IMG/VR virus record: IMGVR_UViG_3300045051_001110
Span: 1-27,859 of that record
Length of the DNA stretch: 27,859 nucleotides
Reading direction: 5' to 3' (one strand)
From: a virus
A model generated the notes under the pieces. That model made no database searches and was not told the origin of the DNA. It worked only from the letters and a program-made list of their open reading frames with translations. Below are positions 23,700 through 27,819 of this stretch, one piece after another. The number at the start of each line of letters is the position of its first letter. Position 1 is the first letter of the stretch. Both the position numbers and the translations under genes were made by a program.

Positions 23700-24110
23700 A
23701 TGTTCGATTTGTGCCGCAAGTGGTTCACGCCGGGTGTGAAGTTGGAAGAGCAGGACTTGAAGGCGACGATTCACTTGGTGGTGAAGGTCGCCATCGCCTT
23801 GTTCCTCGTTGCCTTGGGGCTGGGCATCTACGTGCTGTTCACCAGCCATCGACCCACGGCTGTGGCTGATCAGGCACCCGACGCCATGGTGCGCCTCCTG
23901 ACCGCTATCGGCGTATGGGGAGTGATCGGCCTGATCACTTATGCGACCATCCAGGCCTGGGACAACACCGGCCGCGCCGCGAGTCTATTGCACGTTCAGG
24001 CCGGCGACCGGGCACTGGTGATCCTCGCCAAGACCCTCGGAGCGGCTCTGACCGACGCTTCCATCATCCTGGCCGCGGCCCTGGTCTTCGGGCGGGTCGT
24101 GGGTCTTTGA
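23700..24110 (+). CDS. Three-helix membrane protein at the head of the lysis cassette
   Basis: 136 residues. ATG 23700 has AGGAG six bases upstream; an in-frame GTG at 23649 would add 17 residues but has no ribosome site. Three hydrophobic helices are visible: about 24-47, 66-87 and 106-134 (SIILAAALVFG at the end). A charged amphipathic N-terminus (DLCRKWF) precedes them. Size and topology suit a class I holin, which would open the inner membrane at lysis time, but a smaller two-helix candidate lies two genes downstream. It could be either an antiholin or an unrelated membrane protein. It overlaps the endolysin start by one base (TGATG). Confidence 0.6.
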   Translation: MFDLCRKWFTPGVKLEEQDLKATIHLVVKVAIALFLVALGLGIYVLFTSHRPTAVADQAPDAMVRLLTAIGVWGVIGLITYATIQAWDNTGRAASLLHVQAGDRALVILAKTLGAALTDASIILAAALVFGRVVGL

Positions 24111-24619
24111 TGCGACGATTCGCCTTGGTTCTGCTCCTGACGCCCCTGGCGGGGGCCCAGGTGCCCTATTGGGCCGAATTTCAGAAATACCCGCATCCCG
24201 TGGAACTCGCCGCGCAGGTTCGGCAGGAGAGCCGGTTCAATCCGCTGGCCAAATCCCAGGTTGGGGCCATGGGCCTCACCCAGTTCATGCCCGGCACGTG
24301 GCGCGAAGCCATCAAACGCGGCTGGGCCCCGGCTGAGGCTTCGCCCTGGGACGCTCCTGCGAGCATTCAGGCCCAATCGGGTTACATGACCTACCTCACC
24401 AGCTTCTTCCGGGGATCCTGGCCAAAGGCCTGGGCGGGCTACAACTGTGGTGAGGGCCGGGTGCGCCGCGTGGAGCGCAAGGTCATGGCCCGAGGCATCA
24501 CTGATACGTACGAACGGCGCGTCTGGTTGTCCATGCTGCCCGCGGAGACCCAGGGCTACGTCGATCGCATCGAGCGTGTGCATGTGCCCTGGGTTCGTGC
24601 GCGCGTCGGAGTGGAGTGA
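24110..24619 (+). CDS. Endolysin: secreted lytic transglycosylase
   Basis: 169 residues. The frame is open earlier, but ATG 24110 overlaps the upstream stop and begins a Sec signal peptide: MRRF, a hydrophobic core LALVLLL-like stretch, then PLAGAQ with likely cleavage after AGA. The mature enzyme has the SLT fold: catalytic Glu in QVRQESRFNPLA (Glu about 40), then GAMGLTQFMPGTW and YNCGEGRV. It cleaves the glycan strand of peptidoglycan, forming 1,6-anhydro-muramic acid. A signal peptide allows export by the host Sec system, so the holin would mainly set timing by depolarising the membrane. The gene is coupled to both neighbours. Confidence 0.9.
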   Translation: MRRFALVLLLTPLAGAQVPYWAEFQKYPHPVELAAQVRQESRFNPLAKSQVGAMGLTQFMPGTWREAIKRGWAPAEASPWDAPASIQAQSGYMTYLTSFFRGSWPKAWAGYNCGEGRVRRVERKVMARGITDTYERRVWLSMLPAETQGYVDRIERVHVPWVRARVGVE

Positions 24620-24924
24620 TGGAGTGTCCGTCGACCCCGGTGACCCCTATGATGACGACCCCTATGGATGGCCGTATCGACCGCTACCTGAAAGGGAGTT
24701 CCCGGCGGCTGATCGCCTATCGCGCCTCGATGGTGCTCCTGATCGTATTGGCGGCGCTCACGTCGGTGGTTTGCTATCAGGGGATGACCTATCACCCCAT
24801 TGACAACGGACTCCTCACCACCCTGACGTTCGTGGCTGGCATCGCCGCTGCCCTTGCCAGGGAGATTCGCAGGACATCGAATGAGCCCACGAAACCGGGA
24901 ACCGAGAACGAGGCCAAGCCATGA
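24619..24924 (+). CDS. Putative holin, two transmembrane helices
   Basis: 101 residues. ATG 24619 overlaps the endolysin TGA by one base; the adjacent GTG at 24616 is possible. Two hydrophobic helices (about 37-55, SMVLLIVLAALTSVV; about 66-80, LLTTLTFVAGIAAAL) are joined by a short periplasmic-type loop. The C-terminus is highly charged and ends NEAKP, as in many holins. This topology and the location next to the endolysin are typical of class II holins. The call is from architecture, not sequence family. It overlaps the next start by four bases. Confidence 0.55.
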   Translation: MECPSTPVTPMMTTPMDGRIDRYLKGSSRRLIAYRASMVLLIVLAALTSVVCYQGMTYHPIDNGLLTTLTFVAGIAAALAREIRRTSNEPTKPGTENEAKP

Positions 24925-25502
24925 CTCTCCGCGGCGCCACGACTCTTGTGGCGATTGCCCTTGCCGGCGCTTTTGTGGCGGGTCTGGTGCTCGGTCGGAA
25001 GATGGCGAACCCGAGGATGAAATCCTGGCCAATGAGCAGCGCCCCGAGCGTCCGTCTGCGGGACGGCGCTCTGGTGGCGGAACGCAGGCTAGATCCGGAA
25101 GCCCAACCCAGGCAAGCACTCCCGTCCGGAAGCAAGGCGCATCGGTTATTGTCCGTCGTGGTGATGCCCCGAACCAGTGGATCAAACCAGCCGGCCGAGG
25201 GAAGCCCAGTGGCTGGAAAGGGCGTGAGGGTTGATGTGACCCTGACGGATAACAACCGGGCGGTGGTCTCGAGTTCTGACGGCGAGGTGGTGACGGCCAC
25301 GGATGTCTTCGTGACACCCCCCCGCACCGAGCGAACGACGCACACGCTCATCACGGCCTACAATCCGGTCACACGGGATGCGGTCTTGGCGTATTCCCAA
25401 CGATGGTTCTCCCTTGGGCCCGTGACGTTCGAAGCGGGCGCTCTGGTTGCCTACCAGGACAGAAAGCCGGGCGCCTACGCCCTCTTGATCGCGAGGTGGT
25501 GA
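24921..25502 (+). CDS. Membrane-anchored hypothetical protein of the lysis cassette
   Basis: 193 residues. ATG overlaps the previous stop (ATGA). An N-terminal hydrophobic segment (about 5-25, TTLVAIALAGAFVAGLVLG) would anchor it in the inner membrane. The rest is a soluble region with Pro/Arg-rich linkers, VRVDVTLTDNNRAVVSS, and a C-terminal beta part with TTHTLITAYNP and FEAGALVAYQDRKPGAY. I do not recognise a family with known function. The place and topology suggest a periplasmic partner in lysis, perhaps spanin-like, but there is no Rz coiled coil and no Rz1 lipobox. Ends 1 base before the next ATG. Confidence 0.55.
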   Translation: MTLRGATTLVAIALAGAFVAGLVLGRKMANPRMKSWPMSSAPSVRLRDGALVAERRLDPEAQPRQALPSGSKAHRLLSVVVMPRTSGSNQPAEGSPVAGKGVRVDVTLTDNNRAVVSSSDGEVVTATDVFVTPPRTERTTHTLITAYNPVTRDAVLAYSQRWFSLGPVTFEAGALVAYQDRKPGAYALLIARW

Positions 25503-25503
25503 A

Positions 25504-25875
25504 ATGGTCGAAGCGGTTCACATGTCCCTTTCCCCCTTCGACTGGGCGACCCTTCTGGCGGCGTCCGTCATCGTCTGGTGGCTCATTCAACGCGCGGACA
25601 AGAAGCGGGAAGCCGCCGTTCAGCAAGCGGAACAGATCCGGGAGACAGCTGCGGCGAGCCGGCAAGGTGCCATGGATCAGACCCTGGGACGGCTCAGCAA
25701 CGTGGTGGAGGATCTTTCTGCCGCCCTCTACCAGGTCAAAGGCTGGGTGACCGAACATCACGTGACGAAGCCGGATCATCAGCGGGAAATGGAAAACCTC
25801 GAGAAGGCGCTCCGGCGGGATCTGGAGCAACACGTCATCAATTGCCCGGGCCGGAAAGGGCGGACACCGGAATAG
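25504..25875 (+). CDS. Membrane-anchored coiled-coil protein, 123 aa
   Basis: ATG 25504 follows the upstream TGA by one base, with GAGGTGG before it; ATG 25522 would shorten it by six. A hydrophobic helix (about 13-28, FDWATLLAASVIVWWLI) is followed by a charged helix RADKKREAAVQQAEQI and further long helical stretches, with a basic tail. The outline (one N-terminal helix plus a coiled coil) is that of phage proteins annotated as lysis accessory, DUF2730-like or Rz-like. It lacks a clear Rz signature. It may act as a spanin component or membrane adaptor. It is the last rightward gene before the attachment region. Confidence 0.55.
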   Translation: MVEAVHMSLSPFDWATLLAASVIVWWLIQRADKKREAAVQQAEQIRETAAASRQGAMDQTLGRLSNVVEDLSAALYQVKGWVTEHHVTKPDHQREMENLEKALRRDLEQHVINCPGRKGRTPE

Positions 25876-26015
25876 GGGCTTGGAAATCACCGACACGGGT
25901 GATGATTGAATGTTCCTTTCAGTCATCTATGTGAATGTCAATATGAACACATGCAATCTTTACCTAATTTTACGGTATGAAATTCGCATGGATGATAGGG
26001 ATTGCCCATCTCTGA

Positions 26016-26522
26016 ATGGAGTTGGGGTACATTCATATCACACGGGGCTTGGCAGCCCTCCCACATAGCGGCCCCGTCGCCCGCTGCGACGGCATCCTTG
26101 TCGGGATGCCGTGGAAATGCAATACCCTCGCGGGGAATACCACGGGCCTCGCTATGTGGAGGCTGCCAACTCCCGACGCCATTGGGATCCGCGCCATCGA
26201 GCTCGCCAGCTCCGTAGGCGCCCGCTTGTCTGGAGTTGCGGTGTATTCCGAATTGCAGGCCCTCTGCCTCTTCTTCGCTCAAAGCCCAGTGAAGCGCCAC
26301 ATGGAGTGGGTGCTCCAGCAGATTCATCGAAATCCAGGGCTAAAAGTCGACCTAGCATTGGTGCGGGTTTCCGGGGAATTCCTGTGGGACTGTTGTGGGA
26401 CTGACCGGGCCAAGGGCCTCGCGGCCTCCTTGAAGCTGTTGGGGTTATGCAATGCCCAAATACAAGCCAAGAATGTCCAAAATCGCAAAAAACCGAACAC
26501 AAAAAAACGCCCCAAGTGTTGA
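26016..26522 (+). CDS. Doubtful open frame, 168 aa
   Basis: The frame begins ATG 26016 without a clear ribosome site and ends inside the loop of the leftward terminator hairpin. Its middle reads like a plausible soluble helix-rich protein (PDAIGIRAIELASSVGARL, then KRHMEWVLQQIHRNP), and codon third positions are often G or C. However, it runs through the folded element and the 23-base repeat, and the end is Lys-rich because the strand is the reverse of the terminator tract. It could be a real small gene, a captured host fragment or chance. No family is recognised. Confidence 0.25.
   Translation: MELGYIHITRGLAALPHSGPVARCDGILVGMPWKCNTLAGNTTGLAMWRLPTPDAIGIRAIELASSVGARLSGVAVYSELQALCLFFAQSPVKRHMEWVLQQIHRNPGLKVDLALVRVSGEFLWDCCGTDRAKGLAASLKLLGLCNAQIQAKNVQNRKKPNTKKRPKC
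26049..26169. ncRNA. Folded element: long stem enclosing three hairpins
   Basis: An outer stem pairs TTGGCAGCC (26049-26057) with GGCTGCCAA (26161-26169), continues through TCC/GGA and ACATAGC/GCTATGT with single-base bulges, and encloses three stems: CCGTCGC/GCGACGG (26074-26092), GGCATCC/GGATGCC (26091-26110) and CCGTGG/CCACGG (26109-26145). The inner stems share end bases and would compete. The strand and nature (RNA, or folded single-stranded DNA) cannot be decided. It is the most structured sequence I see in the window. Confidence 0.35.
26382..26404 (+). repeat. Direct repeat copy 1, putative integrase arm site
   Basis: CTGTGGGACTGTTGTGGGACTGA, itself a tandem pair of TGTGGGACTG units 11 bases apart, occurs here and identically at 26641-26663, on opposite sides of the tRNA-like core. 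Similarity stops abruptly at both ends. Paired direct repeats flanking a core are the form of integrase arm-binding sites. The distance to the core is 136 bases. Confidence 0.5.
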
Positions 26523-26535
26523 TCATTGGGGCGTT
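26501..26535 (-). terminator. Intrinsic terminator after the tRNA half
   Basis: Read leftward, AACGCCCCAA, a 10-base loop and TTGGGGCGTT form a perfect 10-bp stem followed by a T-run (seven A on the given strand, 26501-26507). It ends leftward transcripts of integrase or, after integration, of the restored tRNA gene. The spacing from the tRNA CCA end is only six bases. Confidence 0.85.
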
Positions 26536-26540
26536 AAGGT

Positions 26541-26585
26541 TGGTGGCTGGAGACAGACTCGAACTGTCGACCTAGGGATTATGAG
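26541..26585 (-). other. attP: attP core: 3' half of a CAT-anticodon tRNA gene
   Basis: Read leftward this runs CTCATAATCCC (anticodon loop and 3' stem), the variable bases TAGGTCG, a perfect T arm GACAG-TTCGAGT-CTGTC, the acceptor strand TCCAGCC, then ACCA. That is the 3' half of tRNA-Met (or tRNA-Ile2 with CAT). No 5' half adjoins: upstream bases are integrase codons, and the base expected to pair with the first T of the 3' anticodon stem is T, not A. This marks where phage identity with the tRNA begins. The encoded CCA and the terminator would rebuild a working host tRNA on integration. Confidence 0.85.
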
Positions 26586-27819
26586 ACCCAAGAGCCAGTT
26601 TTAATTTCAGATTTGATTTAAGTTTGATGACCTTCCTTTTCTGTGGGACTGTTGTGGGACTGAGGTCGAAGGCTTTCTCCTGGGCTTTCCGGAGGTCGTC
26701 TTCGATGATCTTGACGTAGCGCCGGACAGGCCCTTCGGACTTCCAACGACCGGCCTTCATGATCAGGCGTTCGCTGGCACCGGCGCGCGCCATGAGCGTG
26801 GCGCCGGTGCCGCGCATGCGGTGGGGTGTGAGGCCGTGCACGCCGATGGCCTTACCCGCGGCGGCAATGGCCTTCCGGGTGAACTGGGGACGATGGGGCT
26901 CGCCATCCTCGGCTGGGATGACCCAGGGGCAATGCTTGCGAGCCCGTTCCTTGAGCTGGGCGAGTAGCGGCCGGATATGGACGGGTACGGGTAGGGTGGT
27001 GGCCTCGTAACCCTTCGTGTCGCCCGGGGTATAGGTCCGGAAGCCCCGACCGAACCACTCCCACTTCATGCCCACGGCGTCTTCCTCGCGGAGCAGGAGG
27101 TAGAGCATCATTCGCACGGCCACGCGCACATGGAGGGCGTCGGTGGGCTTCTTGGGTTTCTTGCCTGCCTTCCGGGCGGCGCCGGCCTGGGTGATCCGGT
27201 CGAGGGCTGCCAAGAATGGATCGACGTCTTCCAGGGTGAGGAAGTGGCGGACAGGTTCCTGTTCGGGGAGCGGTGTCAGTTTGAAGGGTACCGACTCGAT
27301 GAGTTCCTCGGCCACGCACCAGCCATAGACTAGGCTCAAATGGGAGATGAGATGGTTGGCGCCAGAGGCTTTTCGCTCTCCCTGTTTGCGCTCCTCGCCG
27401 GGGCGTTTCTTCTGGTGGAGGTTCCGGAGGCTCAAGCCCTCGTGGAAGGCCTTGCGGAGTTTGCGGGCCACGGGTGTCGTGACGGCCATGGCCTTCATCT
27501 TCCCGAGCTCTGGAAGGATGTGGAGTTCCCAGTCTCGGGTGACGCGCGCCTTGTGGGCCGCGCTCACATCCTTTCCGATGCCCTCCGACCAGGCCTTCCA
27601 GAGTCCTTCCACGAGGATGTCTGGACTATCCGGGGGCGCCAGATCCGCCTTCTGGGCGGCGAGTTTGGCAATTAGATCCTGTTTGAACTCCAGAGCCTTT
27701 TTCCTGGATTCATAGCCAGTTGGGCCTTGATATTTCTCACCCTTGAAGCGGAAAGTGTAAAACTGGTAGCCATTACCGGCTTGGTAGATACCGTCTCGGA
27801 CATGACGTTTCTTGGTCAC
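26572..27819 (-). CDS. int: Tyrosine integrase targeting the tRNA gene
   Basis: 415 residues on the minus strand. GTG at 27819 has GGAG seven bases upstream; the nearby ATG is out of frame and soon stops. The N-terminal 55 residues (GYQFYTFRFKGEKYQG) form an arm-binding domain, about 65-190 the core-binding domain, and about 195-380 the catalytic domain. The active-site set is Arg244 (LLLREED), Lys269 (DTKGYE), His333 and Arg336 (TPHRMRG), Trp359 in the second His position (AGRWKS) and Tyr368 (RRYVK). After Tyr368 comes a 47-residue tail whose last six codons and TAG lie in the tRNA-derived core. The enzyme inserts phage DNA at the host tRNA. The excisionase and promoter lie outside the window. 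Confidence 0.95.
   Translation of the reverse strand: MTKKRHVRDGIYQAGNGYQFYTFRFKGEKYQGPTGYESRKKALEFKQDLIAKLAAQKADLAPPDSPDILVEGLWKAWSEGIGKDVSAAHKARVTRDWELHILPELGKMKAMAVTTPVARKLRKAFHEGLSLRNLHQKKRPGEERKQGERKASGANHLISHLSLVYGWCVAEELIESVPFKLTPLPEQEPVRHFLTLEDVDPFLAALDRITQAGAARKAGKKPKKPTDALHVRVAVRMMLYLLLREEDAVGMKWEWFGRGFRTYTPGDTKGYEATTLPVPVHIRPLLAQLKERARKHCPWVIPAEDGEPHRPQFTRKAIAAAGKAIGVHGLTPHRMRGTGATLMARAGASERLIMKAGRWKSEGPVRRYVKIIEDDLRKAQEKAFDLSPTTVPQKRKVIKLKSNLKLKLALGSHNP
26641..26663 (+). repeat. Direct repeat copy 2, inside the integrase gene
   Basis: Identical in sequence and direction to 26382-26404. Read on the minus strand it encodes SPTTVPQ (residues 387-393) of the integrase tail, 55 bases from the core. 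The shared stretch is DNA, not protein: neighbouring codons do not match at the other copy. Confidence 0.5.

Follow-up and report, generated by a model that had tools for sequence, protein, structure and literature searches.

Gene order around the attachment region

A tRNA-like sequence lying between the lysis genes and the integrase of a temperate phage raises the question of whether the junction is an intact attachment site or one end of an integrated element, and hence in what form the DNA was sequenced. The window analysed here (27,859 bases) is a whole IMG/VR record, classed as linear. Its left part encoded a phrog_1924 gene, an integrase, the small and large terminase subunits, a head-tail joining protein and the portal, followed on the right by the major head protein, tail proteins, tape measure, tail tip protein, endolysin and the att region. 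Two IMG/VR relatives were informative: G001 (3300005263_000008) and G002 (3300003887_000007), whose portal is 53% identical to that of the window phage. The first-pass annotation had described lysis genes, a tRNA-like core and an integrase as contiguous in that order, and this was borne out; from left to right, we found late and lysis genes, a structured RNA, an arm, a terminator hairpin, a tRNA-Met 3' half, a second arm and the integrase:

24110-24619, plus strand: endolysin (SLT transglycosylase; Pfam SLT 2.3e-19, PHROG endolysin 7.4e-29), on the lysis side of attP
24616-24924, 24921-25502 and 25504-25875, plus strand: three small open reading frames 3' of the endolysin, recognised by position
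26043-26175, plus strand: structured RNA with an sRNA-Xcc1-like core (RF02221, 43.2 bits, E 3.7e-6), its pairs shared with G002
26383-26404, plus strand: lysis-side arm-type site pair, TGTGGGACTGT TGTGGGACTGA, 11-bp period, an exact repeat of 26642-26663
26499-26535, minus strand: intrinsic terminator just past the tRNA 3' end, AACGCCCCAA...TTGGGGCGTTTTTTT, called from fold energy
26541-26585, minus strand: attP core, the 3' half of tRNA-Met(CAT) with CCA (T-arm, anticodon loop, CCA)
26572-27819, minus strand: tyrosine integrase, 415 aa, stop codon within the core (Pfam Phage_integrase 2.7e-11, PHROG integrase 1.7e-38)
26642-26663, plus strand: integrase-side arm-type site pair within the 3' coding end of the integrase, an exact repeat of the lysis-side pair; the G001 arm lies at homologous codons

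Judging from their position, the three small open reading frames (24616-25875) are probably accessory lysis genes; they had no informative family matches. No replication or repressor genes were found among the window proteins searched, and the window is an incomplete phage fragment that lacks the early region, a point absent from the first-pass annotation. G001 has the same order of lysis genes and integrase, and its contig is broken between terS and terL, running from late genes through arms, integrase, repressor, early genes and the phrog_1924 gene to terS, with terL at the opposite contig end. Because ~11 kb of repressor and early genes separate the G001 integrase from its phrog_1924 gene, the window would be part of a genome of ~39 kb. 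A second complete tyrosine integrase was present at 1189-2328, flanked by the phrog_1924 gene and the gene for the small terminase, in a slot that comprises just 151 bp in G001 and holds an HNH endonuclease in G002; from this comparison it looks like an insertion site for mobile genes. A tRNA-like stretch beside this second integrase (~2500-2540) was dropped as it had no proper T-arm pairing.

The tRNA-derived core, its arms and the integrase

Read on the minus strand from 26585 to 26541, the core is CTCATAATCCCTAGGTCGACAGTTCGAGTCTGTCTCCAGCCACCA, with a CAT anticodon loop, a T-arm paired throughout and CCA encoded in the DNA; no other tRNA 3' half ending in CCA occurs in the window. ARAGORN identified no whole tRNA in the window: upstream of the anticodon loop the sequence is TAAAACTGGCTCTTGGGT, without a D-arm, and the tRNA 5' half is absent. 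Since anticodon-stem pairs 27-43 and 31-39 are also both T-T, the tRNA at the core is not intact. The terminator past its 3' end folds at -19.7 kcal/mol (z -3.7, over 26490-26545) and has a counterpart at the same place in G002. A 7-bp overlap, CTCATAA, probably lies at 26579-26585, a position deduced from the sequence. The exact core had no match in a search confined to viral contigs, and no host genome with a matching tRNA was found; nor did genome contigs contain relatives of the integrase and terminase, so no host was assigned.

The repeats on either side of the core, which the first-pass annotation had called arm-like and matching, proved identical over 22 nt (TGTGGGACTGTTGTGGGACTGA). Each consists of two copies of TGTGGGACTG with an 11-bp period, a motif found nowhere else in the window, and all four occurrences of GTGGGACTG in the whole window fall within the arms. 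The longest exact direct repeat in 25876-26760 was 23 nt, compared to a maximum of 14 in 40 dinucleotide shuffles. We found the exact arm sequence nowhere else. Looser pairs of TGTGGGAC occurred in 84 viral contigs and showed no enrichment near the integrases that an insensitive profile could detect (7 sites out of 103; background ~5%). Three unrelated contigs (L162, L189 and L194) had TGTGGGAC pairs in or beside the 3' end of an integrase, and the pair in L194 adjoins a tRNA-like sequence.

The catalytic residues R244, K269, H333 and R336 (R, K, HxxR) of the integrase adjoining the core are common to three integrases, with the tyrosine placed within one alignment column; we found no relatives of this integrase in viral contigs or in named phages. 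Its adjacency to the core had been noted previously and stands, with the correction that the frame runs through the right-hand arm, which encodes the coding end SPTTVPQ, and finishes SHNP-stop inside the core (TAG, 26574-26572). The last codons and stop (26572-26585) are thus encoded by the tRNA-derived core, and after integration would be supplied by host DNA. The G001 integrase ends SASTVPLKTERAS, with its arm motif, CAGTGGAACT, on the same codons as the window arm, and a tandem pair of CAGTGGAACT also lies ~250 bp away on the lysis side. The arm sequence differs between the two lineages yet matches across the core, as would be expected if each integrase reads both sides.

An intact attP and the physical state of the sequenced DNA

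We consider it very likely (probability about 0.9) that 25504-27819 spans the attP, still intact, of a temperate phage whose tyrosine integrase is of the lambda type and targets a tRNA-Met(CAT) gene. A single tRNA 3' half flanked by identical arms, with phage genes to its left and right and neither a tRNA 5' half nor any host gene at the core, identifies the site as attP and not attL or attR. The core reproduces the tRNA 3' half, anticodon loop through CCA, and behind it comes a terminator that the phage itself carries. The N-terminal domain of the integrase would bind the tandem arm sites on both sides, and strand exchange would take place within the anticodon loop, both the binding and the crossover point being predictions. 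On integration, the host would contribute the 5' half of the rebuilt tRNA and the phage its 3' half and terminator; the integrase end would be joined to the host's own copy of that 3' half, from which the last integrase codons and the stop would come.

The contig G002 begins inside a tRNA-Met that has a D-arm and an anticodon stem with every pair formed. Next come a terminator, a tandem arm with two copies of TATCCCCAT at an 11-bp period, the same structured RNA and then phage genes. Order and orientation match those of the window, and replication-type (early) genes occupy the far end. Its sequence presents it as the integrated form of the lysis-side junction, in which an apparently rebuilt tRNA is visible as far as the contig reaches; no lysogen of the window phage itself was found. 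The G002 arm (ATGGGGATA) differs from that of the window, and no integrase was found in the G002 contig; where G002 has the tRNA 5' half the window has its integrase, which marks the window site as attP. The first-pass annotation had proposed an uninterrupted attP, and a sequence that is not a single prophage, and the comparison supports it, the integrated junction differing as predicted.

As the junction is unbroken, the sequenced DNA would have been a circle, a concatemer or virion DNA, or else have come from the middle of a tandem prophage; that the contig is not a single integrated prophage is supported by the sequence on both sides of the core. A check for closure of the contig into a circle had also been proposed. 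The contig does not close: neither the overlapping or repeated ends of a complete circular phage genome nor an early region was present, and with a linear record lacking terminal repeats, circular, virion and tandem-prophage origins are indistinguishable. Two copies of the phage lying in tandem as prophages in a single chromosome would have an attP-like middle junction with identical local sequence, and the contig ends offer no proof of circularity to set against this arrangement; yet it needs a double lysogen, no recognised host DNA occurred anywhere in the 27.9 kb, and nothing specific favours it, making this origin improbable. Least credible of all is that the DNA left of 26541 belongs to the host or a different prophage and the core is the attR of an element to the right, which core and integrase alone would suit, because the left arm is identical to the right, which assigns the pair to a single integrase, because the RNA and terminator to the left of the core are matched in G002 on the phage side of its junction, and because host genes directly left of the core, named earlier as the sign of such an origin, were absent between 25875 and 26541.

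A structured RNA beside the attachment site

The Rfam match of the RNA spans 26100-26185 and falls below the sRNA-Xcc1 (RF02221) gathering cut-off of 53 both in the window (43.2 bits) and in G002 (43.8 bits). An open reading frame at 26016-26522 overlaps the RNA, and the first half of this frame probably does not represent a gene. At ~74% identity to the G002 copy, all 46 of 46 pairs were kept, none was broken and 7 changes were compensatory, compared to 0-1 when the partner sequence was slid as a control; covariation between these two sequences is good evidence for RNA structure, though not for a function. The same bases, GTCGGG, are claimed by the Rfam fold and by the longer one, which are in competition for them. 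The only close relative of the RNA was that of G002, in the same place and orientation beside a tRNA att site. Eight other viral records contained sRNA-Xcc1 above the cut-off, none near a detected integrase; one viral record had two tandem copies ~200 bp apart (L113:10373-10663). The family is best known from integron cassettes and the genomic islands of plant pathogens (PMC12444791, PMC12189769). It is a doubtful, if conceivable, reading that the 133-nt RNA represents a phage class related to sRNA-Xcc1, kept close to attP in diverged phages and acting in the lysis-lysogeny or integration decision.

Comparison with known systems and significance

In tRNA-type attP sites described in the literature, 30-45 bp are common to attP and attB and the arm sites come in pairs (PMC10865867). 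The window resembles the tRNA-type attP of Int-Y temperate phages such as mycobacteriophage Boilgate, in which the core copies a ~45-nt tRNA 3' half, putative arm sites lie on both sides and the integrase is adjacent (PMC10865867), but differs in its phage group, its tRNA (Met-CAT) and an integrase frame that ends in the core. With phage lambda attP it shares a tyrosine integrase and a core that has arm sites to its left and right. Tandem arm sites in lambda are about one helical turn apart, as in the window, whereas lambda attB is not in a tRNA and the arm sequences are unrelated. Elsewhere, the relative G005 (L065:17967-18029) carries a tRNA-Cys-like 3' half flanked by late genes and its integrase; this is a further uninterrupted attP-like junction, with a different tRNA and a core facing the opposite way.

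As a canonical lambda-type attP lying in the 3' half of a tRNA gene, the site is of a well-known kind and textbook phage anatomy; the structured RNA beside it is little studied. The site would settle the physical state of the contig, as something other than a single integrated prophage, and the tRNA-Met integration target may be used for host assignment. An sRNA-Xcc1-like RNA next to a phage attachment site suggests where to look for the family.
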